In this document: positions 1 to 40,037 of the stretch, in pieces
Position numbering within the stretch: position 1 is the stretch's first letter
Layout of the letters: every line of letters begins with the position of its first letter
Assembly: GCA_030693145.1 (NCBI GenBank)
Contig: JAUYBI010000029.1
Coordinates: forward strand, 1-43,229
Direction of reading: 5' to 3'
DNA: 43,229 nt
DNA from: Candidatus Omnitrophota bacterium
Lineage (GTDB): Bacteria > Omnitrophota > Gorgyraeia > Gygaellales > Profunditerraquicolaceae
Position numbers and translations under genes: made by a program
Notes under the pieces: model-generated
The model's input: the letters and a program-made list of their open reading frames with translations, nothing else
What the model was told of the DNA's origin: nothing
The model's database searches: none

Positions 1-36
1 CTGTTGATCGGTAAATCTTTTGTGTAATTGTGCCAT
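1..36 (-). CDS. N-terminal 12 codons of a probable IS transposase, cut by window edge
   Basis: Reading the minus strand, an ATG at 36 follows a strong ribosome-binding site (AGGAGG at 45-50) and opens a frame MAQLHKRFTDQQ that runs off the window. The basic start and the repeat-rich leader suit a helix-turn-helix transposase of the integrase-core (IS481-like/ISNCY) type, but twelve residues cannot prove the family. The start codon and ribosome-binding site lie inside a 17-bp inverted repeat (28-44 with 57-73), so initiation might be modulated by a hairpin. It is the only gene besides the one at the far end whose body lies outside the window. Confidence 0.42.
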   Translation of the reverse strand, partial: MAQLHKRFTDQQ

Positions 37-73
37 ACTTGTAAACCTCCTTTTTCTTACAAGTATGGCACAA
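28..73. repeat. 17-bp inverted repeat over transposase start
   Basis: Arms 28-44 and 57-73 are perfect complements with a 12-nt loop. On the minus strand the loop carries the ribosome-binding site and the 5' side of the second arm carries the start codon. This could be an operator or a translational hairpin; it could also be chance symmetry shaped by the IS. Confidence 0.6.
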
Positions 74-15252: not shown

Positions 15253-16949
<1,697 letters not shown>

Positions 16950-16973: not shown

Positions 16974-17019
16974 TAAACATGGGGACGGTTCTATTTTTAT
17001 AGAACCGTCCCCATGTTTT
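16974..17019. repeat. GGGGACGGTTCT REP-like hairpin after groEL
   Basis: Perfect 21-bp stem (16974-16994 with 16999-17019) and TTTT loop, built around GGGGACGGTTCTAT and its complement. The right arm ends in a T-rich run, so it can also serve as the groESL terminator. A second copy with the same GGGGACGGTTCT arms lies at 39176-39209. Sequences of this type are commonly REPs mobilised by a RAYT (IS200-like) transposase, which is not in the window. Confidence 0.88.
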
Positions 17020-17022
17020 TAA

Positions 17023-17187
17023 GACACTATAATAAACTCTGTTGACTTTTATTAATTATTAACAATAGTAGGGTGGGTTTAAACCCACCCTACTATTGTT
17101 AATAAGCCGTGTAGGGATGTTCCTGCCTACCGGCAGGCAGGTAAACCTCCCTTACTGTTGAAAGTCAACAAGGCTTGTTACATTGTC
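17023..17187. repeat. MITE-like composite element with GTTTAAAC palindromes
   Basis: 165 bp bounded by GACAC... and ...ATTGTC, with imperfect outer arms (AATAAACTCTGTTGAC... and ...GTCAACAAGGCTTGTTAC). Inside is a perfect 50-bp palindrome at 17056-17105 centred on GGGTTTAAACCC, then a second palindrome half-pair (GTAGGGATGTT ... TAAACCTCCCTTAC) split by a CCTGCC palindrome. This and the REP hairpin fill most of the 385-nt gap between groEL and the next gene. The rest of the gap holds a promoter (17213-17241) and a leader of about 90 nt in which I see no riboswitch. Confidence 0.8.
17122..17141. repeat. CCTGCC...GGCAGG palindrome nested in the composite repeat
   Basis: CCTGCCTACCGGCAGGCAGG, 20 bp. 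A near-identical 21-bp copy sits in frame in dnaE at 23418-23438. Here the flanks would rejoin as a GTAGGGAGGTTTAAACCTCCCTAC-like palindrome with two mismatches, so it looks inserted at that palindrome's centre. Confidence 0.7.
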
Positions 17188-23615: not shown

Positions 23616-23729
23616 TATTAACAATAGTAGGGTGGGTTTAAACCCACCCTACTGAAAGTCGGCAGGGTTCTTGACAACGTAGGGTTTAAACCCACCCTAC
23701 TGAAAGTCGGCAGGGTTCTTGACAACGTA
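23616..23729. repeat. GTTTAAAC palindrome with 48-bp tandem duplication
   Basis: A GTAGGGTGGGTTTAAACCCACCCTAC palindrome (core at about 23627-23652) is followed by CTGAAAGTCGGCAGGG and CTTGACAACGTA; the block 23634-23681 is repeated exactly at 23682-23729. The AGTCGGCAGGGTT part matches the flank of the other GTTTAAAC elements. Sits in the 239-nt gap between dnaE and the HU gene; just upstream, ACGTTGAGCAGGTAACGTTGAG (23585 on) carries a short ACGTTGAG direct repeat. Confidence 0.85.
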
Positions 23730-24166: not shown

Positions 24167-25405
24167 ATGTTTAAAAGAATCCCGGGTACTAAAGATATCT
24201 TGCCCGAAGAAACATCTTCCTGGCAAACAGTCGAAGCAACAGCGCGCAGAATATTTTCATTCTATAATTACCGTGAAATCCGTACGCCGGTAATGGAAGA
24301 GGCATCGCTTTTTAACCGTACTTTAGGCGCAACTACCGAGATCGTACAAAAGCAGATGTTCCTCATCCATAACCAAGAGGATACTTACGCGCTGCGCCCG
24401 GAAGGAACGGCCTCAATCGTACGCAGTTATCTGGAAAATAATTTAGAAAAAACCAGTGGTTTTACAAAATTATATTATATTGGCCCGATGTTCCGCCTGG
24501 AACGCCCGCAAAAGGGAAGGCTGCGTCAATTTCATCATATTGGGGTCGAAGCCATCGGCTCAACTCTAGCCAGCTTAGATATAGAGGTAATTAGTTTAGC
24601 CGAACAATTACTGAAAGGTTTCGGAATTACCGGTTACCAGATCAAGATTAACAGCCTGGGTTGCCAGAAAGATAAACAGGCCTTAAGCGCTGCTTTTAAA
24701 AAAAGTTTACCGGAAAAATTACCCCAGCTGTGCGCGGATTGCCAGCGGAGAGCTAAAAATAACGTATTAAGAATATTAGACTGCAAAAACGAAGATTGTC
24801 AAAAAATAGTTAAAACACTCGAAGCTGGACACACCCATCTTTGTCCGGATTGTCGAAACCATTTTGAAGAGGTAAAACGCGGATTAAATGATCTGGGTAT
24901 TTCATTTCAAGTGGTTCCACAGCTGGTGCGCGGCCTGGATTACTACAATCGCACGGTCTTTGAAATCACCCATAGCGATTTAGGCAGCCAGGATGCTATT
25001 GGCGCAGGCGGCCGTTATAATGATTTGGTTAGAGAACTGGGCGGACCAGAGTTAGGGGCAATGGGTTTTGCTTTCGGGGTCGAAAGGCTGCTTTTAGTGC
25101 CCAACGCTCTAAGGCAGAATCCGCCAAAAAAGTTAGTTTATTTAATTACGCTGGGAGAGGCTGCAAAATCCGCAGGCATAAAAATATTAAACCAACTCAG
25201 AAATGCCGAAATACCCGCGGATACGGATTATTTAAATAAATCATTGAAAGGCGCTATGCGCGCGGCTAATGATGCCGGCGCGACTTTTGTCTTAATCTTA
25301 GGAGATGATGAATTAAAAAAACACGCTATTTCCGTTAAAGATATGGCTAACAGCACACAGAAAGAAGTATTCCTGCAAAATTTAATCCAGGAACTAAAAT
25401 GTTAA
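24167..25405 (+). CDS. hisS: Histidyl-tRNA synthetase
   Basis: Class II synthetase charging tRNA-His. 412 residues. Motif 1 region REIRTPVMEEASLF, motif 2 MFRLERPQKGRLRQFHHIG, the two histidine-specific segments LRPEGTAS and VRGLDYYNRTVFEI, and motif 3 AMGFAFGVERLL are all present, followed by the anticodon-binding domain from about residue 325. Cysteine pairs around residues 180-230 (LCADC, HLCPDC) may bind zinc. The start has only a weak ribosome-binding site. The stop overlaps aspS by 7 nt, as in many bacteria where hisS and aspS are paired. Confidence 0.97.
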   Translation: MFKRIPGTKDILPEETSSWQTVEATARRIFSFYNYREIRTPVMEEASLFNRTLGATTEIVQKQMFLIHNQEDTYALRPEGTASIVRSYLENNLEKTSGFTKLYYIGPMFRLERPQKGRLRQFHHIGVEAIGSTLASLDIEVISLAEQLLKGFGITGYQIKINSLGCQKDKQALSAAFKKSLPEKLPQLCADCQRRAKNNVLRILDCKNEDCQKIVKTLEAGHTHLCPDCRNHFEEVKRGLNDLGISFQVVPQLVRGLDYYNRTVFEITHSDLGSQDAIGAGGRYNDLVRELGGPELGAMGFAFGVERLLLVPNALRQNPPKKLVYLITLGEAAKSAGIKILNQLRNAEIPADTDYLNKSLKGAMRAANDAGATFVLILGDDELKKHAISVKDMANSTQKEVFLQNLIQELKC

Positions 25406-29858: not shown

Positions 29859-30000
29859 TAGTGTAACAAACCTTGTTGACTTTTTACAGTAGGGGAGGTT
29901 TAAACCTCCCCTACAGCTTATTAACAATAGTAGGGTGGGTTTAAACCCACCCTACTGTAATTGATAATTAATAAAAGTCAGCGGAGTTTGTTTTAATGTC
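29859..30000. repeat. MITE-like element with two GTTTAAAC palindromes
   Basis: Imperfect outer arms (GTAACAAACCTTGTTGACTTTT on the left; AAAAGTCAGCGGAGTTTGTT and AATGTC on the right) enclose palindromes at 29889-29914 (GTAGGGGAGGTTT arms) and 29929-29956 (AGTAGGGTGGGTTT arms). It fills the gap between recO and panE. No promoter for panE is clear within it. Confidence 0.8.
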
Positions 30001-34168: not shown

Positions 34169-34883
34169 GCGTCGTAAGCGCTTCGCTAAATATTTAAGCC
34201 GCACGATCGCTATGGTTATTGCTTTGGCGTTTGTTATTAAATTCGCCGGGCCGAATCTCTTAAGGCAATATATCAGTTATGGCGTCGGCAACTGTAAAAC
34301 TACTCCCATACTCTGCATGCAGCCCGAAGAAAAAGTATTTACTCCCGAAATTGACAGCGTTTATCTGGACACCTTGGCCTGGAGCGCGTTCCCCAGAATG
34401 GGGATCAGCGCGCCTAAGCGGTTTACTTTAATCCAGGAGTTAATTAAGAAGCAATACTATAAAAAAAGACGTGGCAATAAGAAAGCGGTTATCTATTTAC
34501 TCTTCCAGGAACCGGGAGCTTTTATTAAACTTTATCCGCAGGTACAAAAACAGGGAGTCACCAACAACCATGAATTCATCCGCCGCCTGATGTATGCCCA
34601 TCTAAACCAAATAAACAATATTACCGATACTTTTTTTGTAATCATGAAAAGCGTATTTACTCCGGATGTGGGGAATCAGAGTACCGCTAAAATGATTAGA
34701 TTCCAACTCCATAATCTAAAGGGTTTCATTAACTACTCCATGTCTAAACCGGATAATTATTTTGATTGCAATGTTTTTGATGATGCGGGAAATTTCTTTA
34801 AAGTGTATATAAAAGATATCGGCGCGCAACTGAACCTAAATAATGTATTCGCAATAATCTCCACCCTTAAGCCAATTCAGTAG
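34158..34883 (+). CDS. Uncharacterised membrane-anchored protein
   Basis: 241 residues, family not recognised. A very basic N-terminus (KRRKRFAKYLSR) precedes one hydrophobic stretch (about residues 18-33), giving a signal anchor with the rest probably outside the cytoplasm. Two cysteines at about 45 and 52 (NCKTTPILCM) might form a disulphide. The remainder is mixed alpha/beta with a KKRRGNKK patch and no catalytic motif I can name. The start overlaps panB. The stop codon TAG at 34881-34883 lies within a GTTTAAAC palindromic repeat starting at 34879, so the present C-terminus may be set by repeat insertion. Confidence 0.7.
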   Translation: MAAKRRKRFAKYLSRTIAMVIALAFVIKFAGPNLLRQYISYGVGNCKTTPILCMQPEEKVFTPEIDSVYLDTLAWSAFPRMGISAPKRFTLIQELIKKQYYKKRRGNKKAVIYLLFQEPGAFIKLYPQVQKQGVTNNHEFIRRLMYAHLNQINNITDTFFVIMKSVFTPDVGNQSTAKMIRFQLHNLKGFINYSMSKPDNYFDCNVFDDAGNFFKVYIKDIGAQLNLNNVFAIISTLKPIQ

Positions 34884-34943
34884 GGTGGGTTTAAACCCAC
34901 CCTACTATAATTGATAAAAGTCGGCAGAGTTTATTGTAATGTC
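34879..34943. repeat. Half copy of the GTTTAAAC element overlapping a stop codon
   Basis: Perfect 28-bp palindrome at 34879-34906 (AGTAGGGTGGGTTT arms) followed by the right flank ATAATTGATAAAAGTCGGC and AGAGTTTATTGTAATGTC. The left flank found in other copies is missing; the upstream gene abuts directly and takes its stop from the repeat. A short TGTCATCTTG repeat follows (34940-34963). Together with that, it fills most of the gap to glyS. Confidence 0.85.
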
Positions 34944-36375: not shown

Positions 36376-36405
36376 TTGTAGAGGAGGTTTAAACCTCCTC
36401 TACAA
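36376..36405. repeat. GTTTAAAC palindrome, core only
   Basis: Perfect 30-bp palindrome with arms TTGTAGAGGAGGTTT, 11 nt after the glyS stop and 29 nt before ppdK. It lacks the long flanks seen in other copies. A preceding TTATTAACAA is the usual neighbour. No T run, so it is not a standard terminator. Confidence 0.85.
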
Positions 36406-36433: not shown

Positions 36434-39166
36434 ATGGCTAAGAAATATATTTACAGTTTCGGCGGCGGTAAAGGCGAAGGCAATGAAAGCATGAAGAACC
36501 TCTTAGGAGGAAAAGGCGCGAATTTAGCCGAGATGGCCGGTAACAAGAATTTAATGCTGCCTGTCCCTCCGGGATTTACCTGCACCACAGAGGTCTGCTC
36601 ATATTATTATCAGCATAAAAAGAAATACCCCCAGGAATTAAAAGAGCAGGTTTTAGCTGCCCTTTTAAAGGTAGAAAAAATAATGAACCGGAAATTCGGC
36701 GACAGCAATAATCCGTTATTATTTTCCGTACGCAGCGGCGCCAGAAAATCCATGCCGGGGATGATGGAAACGGTTTTAAATGTCGGGCTGACGGAAGAGA
36801 CTATTCCCGGGCTGATCAAGCAAAGCGGCGGTAACAGCCGTTTTGTCTATGACGCTTACCGGCGCTTAATTATGATGTATTCGGATGTGGTTATGGAAAA
36901 GGCTGCCGGAATTGAGCCCAAAGGCGAAGAGGGAATTCGCAAACAGCTGGAAAAAATCATGGCCCAGATGAAAAAAGATAAAAACTATACCCTGGACACG
37001 GATTTAAACGCTGAGGATTTAAAAAGGCTTTGCGCGCTATTTAAAGCTAAAATTAAAGAAGTTTTAGGCAAAGCATTTCCCGATGAACCCATGGAGCAAT
37101 TGTGGGGCGGCATGGGCGCGGTATTTTCTTCCTGGAACGGAAAACGCGCTATTAGCTACCGCCGGATTGAAGGTATCCCTGATGAGTGGGGCACCGCGGT
37201 TAACGTGCAAGCTATGGTTTTTGGCAACATGGGAGATGATTCCGCCACCGGAGTCGCCTTTACGCGCAACCCGGGAAACGGAGAAAATAATTTCTACGGT
37301 GAATACCTGATTAACGCCCAAGGTGAAGACGTGGTCGCCGGTATTCGCACGCCAGCTCCCATCAATGAATATTCAACTTCCAGCCACAACAAAGAGTTGC
37401 TCACCCTGGAAAAAGCCATGCCTAAAATTTACAAAGAACTTTACCTTATTCAAAATCGCCTGGAGAAACATTATCATGATATGCAAGATATTGAGTTTAC
37501 CATTGAAAAAGGCAAGCTCTTTATGCTGCAGTGCCGCGTAGGCAAACGCAATGGACCGGCAGCTGTACGCATGGCGGTAGATATGGTCAAAGAAAAAATG
37601 ATTAAAAAGGAACAGGCGGTAATGCGCGTAACTCCGGCGCAGCTTGAGGAATTGCTGCATCCGATTATTGACCCTAAAACTGAAAATACGGTCAAGCCTT
37701 TTGCTAAAGGGCTGCCTGCCGGCCCGGGTGGCGCTTGCGGACAGATTGTTTTTTCATCTAGCGACGCGGTAGAGTGGGCAAAAACCGGTAAAAAAGTAAT
37801 CCTGGTGCGTGAGGAAACTAATCCGGAAGACGTAGAAGGTATGCGCGTAGCCCAGGCAATTCTTACTGCCCGCGGCGGCATGACTTCACACGCGGCTTTA
37901 GTTGCCCGGGGTTGGGGTAAATGCTGTATTGTCGGATGCTCCGCGATGCATGTTGATCTGGATAAAAAAACTGTGCAGGTCGAAAGCAAGATCTTAAAAG
38001 AAGGGGACTGGATTACCTTAAACGGCACTAAAGGCAATGTCTATGAAGGCCAGCTTCCGATGATGGATGCCTCCGAAGAAAATATGATACTTTCGGAGTT
38101 TTTAAAGATGTGCGACGCAATAAAAACGCTGGGCGTGCGCACGAATGGGGATACGCCCCAGGACGCGCAAAAAGCCCTGCAATTCGGAGCCGAAGGTATC
38201 GGGCTTTTCCGCACTGAACATATGTTTTACGGCAAAGGTTCAGATCAACCTTTATTCCTTCTGCGTAAAATGATTGTTTCCAAGACCAGTGAAGAAAGGC
38301 AAAAGGCCTTAGATGAATTATTCCCGTTTGTAAAAAAAGATATCAAAGGGACCATCGCGGCAATGGACGGTTTTCCGGTAGTCATTCGTTTATTGGATCC
38401 GCCGCTGCATGAATTCGTGCCCCGCGAGCAGGCAAAGCTTGAGCAATTAGCTAATGATTTAAATATCGATATGCAAGAACTAACTAAAAGAGCCGAAGGT
38501 TTGCACGAATCGAATCCGATGATGGGGCATCGCGGCGTACGCCTGGGAATCACCTATCCGGAAGTAAGCGCTATGCAAATCCGCGCAATTTTAGAGGCAG
38601 CCGCGGAATTAGTTAAAGAAGGCAAGGATCCTTATCCGGAGATTATGATTCCGGTGGTTTGCGATGTAAAAGAATTAACCGATCAATTCGCGATTGCCGA
38701 ACAGATCTATAAGGAAGTCCTGGCAAAATACGGATTGAAAAAAATAAAACATCTTTTGGGAACAATGATTGAAATTCCCCGGGCAGCGATTGTCGCGGAT
38801 AAACTGGCCACTGTCGCCAAATTCTTCTCCTTTGGCACCAATGACCTGACCCAGATGGGTTTTGGTTTCTCCCGGGATGATATCGGCGGGTTCTTGCCGG
38901 ATTATATCCAAAAAGGTATCTTGCCGGAGGACCCCTTCCAAAGCATTGATCAGGAAGGAATCGGCGAATTAATGAAGATGGCTATTAAACGCGGCCGCGC
39001 AACGAATAAAAACTTAGAAATTGGTATCTGCGGAGAGCACGGCGGTGAGCCTAAATCTGTGGAGTTTTGCCATAATATAGGTATGGATTATGTCAGCTGT
39101 TCTCCGTTTAGGGTGCCGATTGCCAAATTAGCCGCAGCGCAAGCGGTAATTAAAAATAAGAAGTAG
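36434..39166 (+). CDS. ppdK: Pyruvate, phosphate dikinase
   Basis: Interconverts pyruvate, ATP and phosphate with PEP, AMP and PPi; in anaerobes it often works in glycolysis to save ATP or in gluconeogenesis. 910 residues, full length. N-terminal ATP-grasp (YSFGGGKGEGNESMKNLLGG, SVRSGARKSMPGMMETVLN), the phosphohistidine domain with ARGGMTSHAALVARG, and the C-terminal PEP barrel with FRTEHMFYG, SFGTNDLTQMGFGFSRDD and the catalytic cysteine in DYVSCSPFRVP. The GMTSH stretch in the central domain is also where a PDRP regulator would act; none is seen nearby. The start has only a weak ribosome-binding site. Confidence 0.97.
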   Translation: MAKKYIYSFGGGKGEGNESMKNLLGGKGANLAEMAGNKNLMLPVPPGFTCTTEVCSYYYQHKKKYPQELKEQVLAALLKVEKIMNRKFGDSNNPLLFSVRSGARKSMPGMMETVLNVGLTEETIPGLIKQSGGNSRFVYDAYRRLIMMYSDVVMEKAAGIEPKGEEGIRKQLEKIMAQMKKDKNYTLDTDLNAEDLKRLCALFKAKIKEVLGKAFPDEPMEQLWGGMGAVFSSWNGKRAISYRRIEGIPDEWGTAVNVQAMVFGNMGDDSATGVAFTRNPGNGENNFYGEYLINAQGEDVVAGIRTPAPINEYSTSSHNKELLTLEKAMPKIYKELYLIQNRLEKHYHDMQDIEFTIEKGKLFMLQCRVGKRNGPAAVRMAVDMVKEKMIKKEQAVMRVTPAQLEELLHPIIDPKTENTVKPFAKGLPAGPGGACGQIVFSSSDAVEWAKTGKKVILVREETNPEDVEGMRVAQAILTARGGMTSHAALVARGWGKCCIVGCSAMHVDLDKKTVQVESKILKEGDWITLNGTKGNVYEGQLPMMDASEENMILSEFLKMCDAIKTLGVRTNGDTPQDAQKALQFGAEGIGLFRTEHMFYGKGSDQPLFLLRKMIVSKTSEERQKALDELFPFVKKDIKGTIAAMDGFPVVIRLLDPPLHEFVPREQAKLEQLANDLNIDMQELTKRAEGLHESNPMMGHRGVRLGITYPEVSAMQIRAILEAAAELVKEGKDPYPEIMIPVVCDVKELTDQFAIAEQIYKEVLAKYGLKKIKHLLGTMIEIPRAAIVADKLATVAKFFSFGTNDLTQMGFGFSRDDIGGFLPDYIQKGILPEDPFQSIDQEGIGELMKMAIKRGRATNKNLEIGICGEHGGEPKSVEFCHNIGMDYVSCSPFRVPIAKLAAAQAVIKNKK

Positions 39167-39175
39167 TAAAAACAA

Positions 39176-39209
39176 GGGGACGGTTCTCCTAGCTAGGAGA
39201 ACCGTCCCC
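39176..39209. repeat. GGGGACGGTTCT REP-like palindrome
   Basis: Perfect 34-bp palindrome without loop: GGGGACGGTTCTCCTAG and its complement. It shares the GGGGACGGTTCT arm with the hairpin after groEL, but has a different tip. Ten nt after ppdK and 12 nt before the sigma-factor gene; no T run follows. Confidence 0.88.
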
Positions 39210-39221
39210 GATATAAAACCC

Positions 39222-40037
39222 ATGGAAGCCTTAAAAACATACCTTAAAGAAGTCAGGTTAATTCCTCTCTTAACCGCTAAACAGGAAATTGAGTTAAATA
39301 AATTAATCCGTAAGGGAGATGAAATTGCCCGTAAAAATATGATCCGGGCAAATCTACGCCTGGTAATTAATATCGCTAAACGCTATATGCGCATGGGCAC
39401 TCCCTTTCTGGATTTAATTGAAGAGGGGAACCTGGGGTTAATGAAAGCCGTGGAAAAGTTCGACCACCGTAAAGGTTTCCGTTTTTCAACTTACGCCGCC
39501 TGGTGGATCAAGCAGGGGATTAGCCGTTCGATTAGCGAACAAGGCAAGATGATCCGGATTCCGGTGTATATGAATGACTTGATTAGCAAATGGAAGAAGA
39601 CTAAAGAGCGCTTAAGCCAAAAATTAAAGCGCGTGCCTTCGGATAAAGAGATCGCCAAAAAATTAAAGCTTACTCCCGAAAAAACAGATCAGATCAATTT
39701 CTGGATGGCCAGTACCACTTCTTCCCTGGAAGCGCCGATTGGCGAAGATAATGAGAACCAGATATCCGAATTAGTCGAAGACAAAAATACCACGCCTCCG
39801 GATGCCGGGATCAAAAAACTCCTTGACCGGGAGAGAATAGACAATCTTCTGGAAGTAATGTCTGACCGGGAGAGAGAGATCTTGGATTTACGTTTTGGAT
39901 TAACGAACACCAAACCCCAAACTTTAGCCGTAGTTGCCAAAAAGCTGGGGGTATCCCGCGAGAGAATCCGCCAGATTGAGGAGGCGGCTTTAAGGAAATT
40001 AAGAAAATTTGTCGTCAGCCAGGAAAAGGAGCATTAA
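39222..40037 (+). CDS. RNA polymerase sigma-70 family factor
   Basis: 271 residues with regions 1.2, 2, 3 and 4 of a group 1/2 sigma but no region 1.1. Region 1.2: YLKEVRLIPLLTAKQEIEL; region 2: NLRLVINIAKRYMRMGTPFLDLI, then GLMKAVEKFDHRKGFRFSTYAAWWIKQ (core binding, -10 recognition and melting); region 4 ends SRERIRQIEEAALRKLR (-35 helix-turn-helix). Missing region 1.1 and short length favour an RpoS-like or alternative group 2 factor rather than the vegetative RpoD. It starts 12 nt past a REP palindrome, which could affect its expression. No anti-sigma factor is adjacent. The start has no strong ribosome-binding site. Confidence 0.92.
   Translation: MEALKTYLKEVRLIPLLTAKQEIELNKLIRKGDEIARKNMIRANLRLVINIAKRYMRMGTPFLDLIEEGNLGLMKAVEKFDHRKGFRFSTYAAWWIKQGISRSISEQGKMIRIPVYMNDLISKWKKTKERLSQKLKRVPSDKEIAKKLKLTPEKTDQINFWMASTTSSLEAPIGEDNENQISELVEDKNTTPPDAGIKKLLDRERIDNLLEVMSDREREILDLRFGLTNTKPQTLAVVAKKLGVSRERIRQIEEAALRKLRKFVVSQEKEH

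Follow-up and report, generated by a model that had tools for sequence, protein, structure and literature searches.

Hairpins 3' of groEL and ppdK in an Omnitrophota genome as probable orphan ends of a RAYT element

The window analysed here, a stretch of 43,229 nucleotides from a Candidatus Omnitrophota bacterium, carries two intergenic hairpins of one sequence family, the first 3' of groEL and the second between a pyruvate phosphate dikinase gene (ppdK) and a sigma-70 family factor gene (Table 1; genes were named by Pfam match). In hairpin 1, 16975-16994 and 16999-17018 form a perfect inverted repeat with arms of 20 bp and a loop of 4 nt, and hairpin 2 is likewise perfect (39176-39192 and 39193-39209), with arms of 17 bp and no spacer. 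The arm common to both is exactly 12 bp, GGGGACGGTTCT / AGAACCGTCCCC, placed at 16981-16992 and 17001-17012 in hairpin 1 and at 39176-39187 and 39198-39209 in hairpin 2, and the sequences part at base 13 (A versus C). The tips are ATTTTTAT and CCTAGCTAGG, respectively, and in hairpin 1 the stem is lengthened outward by AAACAT/ATGTTT. The statement of the first-pass annotation that the two share 12-bp arms but have different tips is therefore literally correct. Folded as RNA, they reach z-scores of -9.5 (hairpin 1) and -7.1 (hairpin 2), each equalled by 0 of 200 shuffles. Hairpin 1 has as its neighbour a perfect palindrome of a second family with the core GTAGGGTGGGTTTAAACCCACCCTAC, and a perfect 17-bp inverted repeat with a 12-nt spacer, TTGTGCCATACTTGTAA, was also observed close to the start of the window (28-73).

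Table 1. Features of the window and of related loci. Positions refer to the window unless a locus is named.
Feature	Position	Strand	Basis
Hairpin 1, GGGGACGGTTCT family, 3' of groEL	16975..17018		Inverted-repeat scan, fold, genome copies
Hairpin 2, GGGGACGGTTCT family, between ppdK and sigma-70 genes	39176..39209		
groEL (Cpn60), upstream of hairpin 1	15312..16949	+	Pfam PF00118
ppdK (pyruvate phosphate dikinase), upstream of hairpin 2	36434..39166	+	Pfam PF01326/PF02896
Sigma-70 family factor gene, start 12 nt past hairpin 2	39222..40037	+	Pfam Sigma70_r2/r3/r4
Perfect palindrome, second family, beside hairpin 1 (core at 17068-17093)	17056..17105		
Second palindrome family in the window	17068-17093, 23627-23652, 29889-29914, 29930-29955, 34880-34905, 36376-36405		
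Leader 5' of RAYT genes	L085 1478-1542; also L115, L076, L032 and 30 others		
YhcG/DUF1016 gene between RAYT leader and last 18 RAYT codons	L355 2476-3876, L375; window genome contig C42, after birA		

Throughout the 1.81-Mb window genome (G000; 75 contigs) the exact 12-mer arm occurs 128 times, against 0 for the reversed pattern, and complete hairpins with a tip of 3-33 nt number 43, against 0 in the control. Their anatomy was derived from about 400 kb of genome sequence holding 58 arm pairs, or 57 without one overlapping pair. Three classes of tip are found among the 58 pairs: short tips of 5-10 nt in which C is often the first base, tips with the pattern ATTTTTC...GAAAAAT and a length of about 30 nt, and long tips that enclose a second palindrome, GTAGGGGAGGTTTAAACCTCCCCTAC. 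This second palindrome family (GTAGGNNNGGTTTAAACCNNNCCTAC; 171 genome copies against 0 for the reversed control) lies inside the tip of about a quarter of the listed hairpins, and its three variable positions are nearly always complementary. A composite of outer arms, nested GTAG palindrome and the palindrome's flanks was found repeatedly and in both orientations, and thus the whole unit seems to be copied. Around the 57 hairpins the consensus is AAAWMNN ahead of GGGG and NNKWTTT behind CCCC, with an A-rich left flank (AAA at -5 to -7; positions -5 and -6 are each A in 53 or more of the 57) and a T-rich right flank (TTT at +5 to +7; positions +5 and +6 are each T in 51 or more). When covariation was sought outside the GGGG...CCCC stem in these hairpins only the -1/+1 pair was marginal (p = 0.02), and the flanks were rejected as a covarying stem extension and are read as fixed context. 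As to placement, 42 of the 57 are intergenic, the genes on either side being tandem for 33, convergent for 8 and divergent for 1; of the rest, 7 overlap with called ORFs and 8 lie at the edge of a sequence stretch. The median distance from stop codon to hairpin is 11 nt.

In sister genomes the same arm brackets transposase genes. Scanning the flanks of 80 RAYT-containing stretches of relatives for inverted repeats revealed GGGGACGGTTCT hairpins or arms on both sides of the RAYT in three genomes (L085 in G009, L115 in G020 and L141 in G040), the first two of which hold 208 and 60 copies of the arm. The autonomous unit in sister genomes consists of a hairpin, a conserved leader, the RAYT gene and a further hairpin, with GGGGACGGTTCT arms in each hairpin. 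The three genes form a single clade with L066 (G001) and L076 (G006), which are located at contig edges, and the alignment of this clade shows no variation at the HUH and Tyr residues (H65, H67 and Y125 in A1). L085 matches Y1_Tnp (PF01797) above the cut-off; NCBIfam NF047646 is the best family for L085, L115, L066 and L141, but at 63-77 bits, under its 80-bit equivalog cut-off, which a clostridial relative (L297) exceeds with 84 bits. A second, shorter RAYT clade (L068, L110, L131) has more complex, GGGACGGTTCT-type ends, and the remaining clades have their own repeats of GGGGAC/GGGGTC type. A related palindrome, GTAG...TTTAAA...CTAC, was seen to adjoin the sister RAYT genes L096, L120 and L125.

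The association extends to other phyla. All bacterial genomes were searched with the clade alignment and the flanks of the resulting 80 loci were then checked; 32 of these relatives have inverted arms (at most one mismatch) 500-1200 bp apart, compared to 0 for each of seven scrambled motifs, and they include Aminicenantes (L278) and several Clostridia (e.g., L305, L309, L344). Within the phylum, exact hairpins are present in 33 of 384 sampled genomes with strong amplification mainly in the window's genus, where copies per genome range from 0 to 449. Genomes with a RAYT of this clade are richer in copies (208, 60, 32 and 81; Mann-Whitney p = 0.009, n = 4 vs 23, with phylogeny and assembly gaps ignored). 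Copy number is not a simple function of the enzyme's presence, since no cognate RAYT was detected in the fairly good assemblies of G014 (449 copies) and G013 (102). In the high-copy genomes where it went undetected, namely these two and the window genome, the RAYT may either have been lost once the hairpins had been amplified or fall in an assembly gap.

Two chromosomal sites carry what may be traces of a RAYT in the window genome. Between alr (alanine racemase) and lptF/G, G009 and G020 contain the RAYT element, G000, G013 and G014 a single GGGGACGGTTCT hairpin, and G018, G016, G004 and G002 no hairpin, while some relatives have hairpins of other families. The tip of the lone hairpin in the window genome matches that of the hairpin 3' of the G009 RAYT at 18 of 22 bases, and a second hairpin of the window genome (contig C37) matches it at 19 of 22, values unreached by shuffled tips. 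The lone alr hairpin could have been left as a scar when a RAYT was lost, or could be a precursor that predates the gain of one. At the birA site, G006 has a RAYT with the arm GGGACCGTTTCT. The same site in G000, unbroken inside a 77-kb contig, opens with a 5' hairpin; this is followed by the leader of the RAYT with its start codon, by a complete nuclease gene (DUF1016/YhcG, PDDEXK), by a RAYT tail and finally by a 3' hairpin. The tail of 59 nt is 97% identical to the RAYT 3' end, with 18 identical codons, and the hairpin arms are the related variant GGGACCGTTTCT and not GGGGACGGTTCT. Likeness to the birA tip of G006, with at least 13 of 19 positions matching, was seen in four tips of the window genome (null P at most 0.008 per tip, uncorrected for multiple tips). 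The difference in tips that the first-pass annotation saw holds for hairpins 1 and 2, but in several members of the family the tip is a diverged copy of one found in hairpins beside a RAYT. The birA element is a gutted relic of the transposase, and the cognate RAYT of the window genome, found as scar and relic only, appears to have decayed at both traceable sites. Contig C13 was also noticed to carry, near 24412 (L378), a GGGGACGGTTCT hairpin and then a RAYT-like leader that precedes, by eye, a small XRE-type regulator gene, possibly another emptied RAYT site.

The leader itself follows the pattern GTTAGA-stem-CGTC[AT][AG]TT-stem with ribosome-binding site-ATG and precedes 34 of 83 RAYT genes from several clades, against a background of 39 in 1900 random windows for its core motif. 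Its stem covaries, with a score reached by 0 of 500 shuffles in a helix register chosen after a first register, one base off, gave no clear support; an Rfam search with the leader gave no match over threshold. The stem probably masks the ribosome-binding site. At the birA site of G019 and G020, a leader of similar kind precedes a Bro-N-like gene. A tentative reading, which we consider rather doubtful, combines two ideas: that the RAYT element is a cargo platform whose ends can keep a gene other than the transposase (YhcG/DUF1016 at birA), and that an undescribed covarying leader hairpin (GTTAGA...CGTCWATT...AAGGAGG) over the ribosome-binding site, common to many RAYTs of the phylum, controls the transposase and passes to the genes that replace it.

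Our preferred explanation, to which we assign a probability of about 0.85, is that each hairpin is a short copy, itself non-autonomous, of sequence from the ends of a RAYT (TnpA-REP / TIRYT) element. The family and its association with RAYTs on both sides, in sisters and in other phyla, are directly observed, as are the shared sites, the scar and the relic; it is from the association, the shared sites and the copy patterns that we infer mobilization by a RAYT. The enzyme, a HUH/Tyr single-strand endonuclease, would recognize the folded arm pair in single-stranded DNA, then cut and join it, seeding hairpin copies of about 30-85 bp including the tip, mostly directly past stop codons. In the window species the RAYT would subsequently have decayed, leaving a population of orphan hairpins, some of which may persist as 3'-end structures, with the groEL copy occupying the terminator position of relatives. 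The order of these events is our reconstruction.

The strongest competitor holds that the hairpins are now mainly RNA or DNA structures serving the host, such as terminators or 3'-end protectors under selection, with convergent or gene-converted arms and ancient or minor mobility. The placement of the 57 hairpins (42 between genes, a median of 11 nt past the stop codon) and their A-rich left and T-rich right outer flanks are in its favor, and the two window sites add to it. At groEL, six genomes of the genus carry the family (G000, G006, G014, G009, G001 and G026) and G028 has a degenerate form, while in most other relatives this position is taken by an unrelated hairpin, terminator-like and with T-runs after it. 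Hairpin 1 offers a 20-bp stem followed, from the shared arm, by ATGTTTTTA, with the Ts partly within the stem; because of this the terminator scan called no canonical terminator at groEL. It is plausible that hairpin 1 serves as, or has replaced, the groESL terminator, since where relatives lack the family hairpin, a different hairpin of terminator-like form mostly takes its place. The earlier suggestion that it doubles as this terminator is in keeping with its position, although the structure is not a canonical terminator. Hairpin 2 begins 9 nt past the ppdK stop codon and ends 12 nt ahead of the next start, with no T-tract, and so a terminator role is not general to the family. It is identical in G006 and compensated in G023, where GGGGATGG pairs with CCATCCCC, a further point for selection on structure; no such hairpin is found at this site in G016, G018, G011, G005 and G028, and others have hairpins of other sequences. 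As a separate observation, G011 has a giant gene, an open frame spanning 37,731 codons, which includes a match to a phosphoenolpyruvate-utilising domain (L272, contig C3, around 69598-70452). Host function alone leaves unexplained a 12-nt arm that is identical across phyla and brackets RAYT genes, as well as a range of 0 to 449 copies inside one genus. We therefore regard it as improbable as the main account, although it can be reconciled with a RAYT origin as later co-option.

The window genome does encode four Y1_Tnp genes (L031-L034), to which the RAYT model is closest in each case with scores under its cut-off. The GGGGACGGTTCT arm was sought in the flanks of all four and is present at none, and they were rejected as cognate enzymes; L034 has its own, different 19-bp terminal inverted repeat, GGGGACAGCTACCATAATT. 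The first-pass annotation had proposed searching the genome for a RAYT gene between these hairpins, and such genes are indeed found, but in sister genomes (L085, L115, L141) and not among these four. It would have given up the idea had there been no RAYT gene and no further copies; there are 128 arms, and intact hairpin-bracketed RAYTs in the sisters. Mobilization in trans by one of L031-L034 instead of the GGGGACGG clade is very improbable: the L032 type (243 aa, adjoining a tyrosyl-tRNA synthetase-like gene) does occur in several high-copy genomes (G000, G006, G009, G020, G015, G023), but also where copies number 0 or 1 (G011, G004, G017), and it was not found in G013 despite 102 copies, in addition to the missing arm in the flanks of all four genes and the separate repeat of L034. 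As separate observations, L031 (contig C43) is a lone-branch RAYT with the palindrome TCTAACC[T/A]GGTTAGA on either side, and L033, L119, L130 and L139 have a long C-terminal part (401-422 aa, L033 being cut by a contig end). A c-di-GMP-I riboswitch (Rfam RF01051, 57-64 bits; 726-804 at L033) precedes these long RAYTs, which suggests second-messenger control of a RAYT-like enzyme. Lastly, chance or assembly artefact in an A+T-rich genome with recurrent simple hairpins has nothing in its favor beyond the fragmented assembly and can be set aside, given that whole-genome counts refute chance (128 arms vs 0 reversed) and the same hairpin sites turn up in independent genomes.

How REP-like hairpins originate and spread is still an open question, as their movement is seldom caught and descriptions of TIR-type families are scarce. 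Here, a single genus displays hairpin-RAYT-hairpin units, single hairpins, a gutted element and empty sites at the same chromosomal positions, together with 0 to 449 copies, so that one can test directly how a hairpin family is born, amplified and orphaned. For biochemistry, the occurrence of one 12-nt arm next to RAYTs of several phyla also supplies a ready substrate-enzyme pair.

Among open-licence PMC papers we found no description of the GGGGACGGTTCT arm or of RAYTs in Omnitrophota, and literature matches to the exact arm sequence were to unrelated papers only. The first-pass annotation took the hairpins for REP sequences mobilized by a RAYT; a dispersed hairpin family tied to a RAYT (Y1, HUH) is what we find, but of TIR type. 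Like classical REPs, it is a high-copy intergenic palindrome mostly 3' of genes, however, the GTAG/GTRG tetranucleotide beside the stem is absent from the flank consensus of the 57 hairpins, and because this tag is missing the family is better filed with the TIR repeats of TIRYTs/TIRtrons. In the description by Di Nocera et al. (2013, PMC3733652), inverted repeats with a GGGGWSAS motif lie on either side of certain RAYT-like genes, and a portion of these repeats belongs to families of moderate abundance. As in TIRtrons, a RAYT-like gene lies between terminal inverted repeats opening GGGG(A/T)(C/G), on both sides in L085, L115 and L141 and in the window genome only as the variant-arm relic, and solo TIR copies are dispersed (128 arms, 43 hairpins here), those of TIRtrons being moderately abundant and many of them inverted dimers. 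Unlike in TIRtrons, the arm GGGGACGG is one position off GGGGWSAS (which the sister families GGGGACAG and GGGGACAC of the same genus fit exactly), one arm sequence is common to several phyla with hundreds of copies per genome, a second palindrome family occupies tips and the RAYT of the host itself survives as a relic. TnpA-Y1 subclass 2.1, equated with TIRYTs whose TIRs fit GGGG[AT][CG]A[CG] (Quentin et al., 2018, PMC6006769), carries an HTH domain at the C-terminus, whereas the Omnitrophota RAYTs here are short at about 185-200 aa. REPtrons (Nunvar et al., 2010, PMC2817692) share the dispersed intergenic palindromes, the inverted pairs round a Y1 HUH transposase and the copies 3' of genes, but here no GTAG/GTRG stands by the stem and two inverted arms with a tip take the place of a single bulged REP. 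MITEs are similarly short non-autonomous inverted-repeat elements from element ends, yet no DDE transposase and no target-site duplication were identified here. REPINs (Bertels and Rainey, 2011, PMC3116915) differ in that the units here are TIR arms without a hairpin of their own, and resemble this family in that two inverted units round a variable middle make up one non-autonomous mobile unit.
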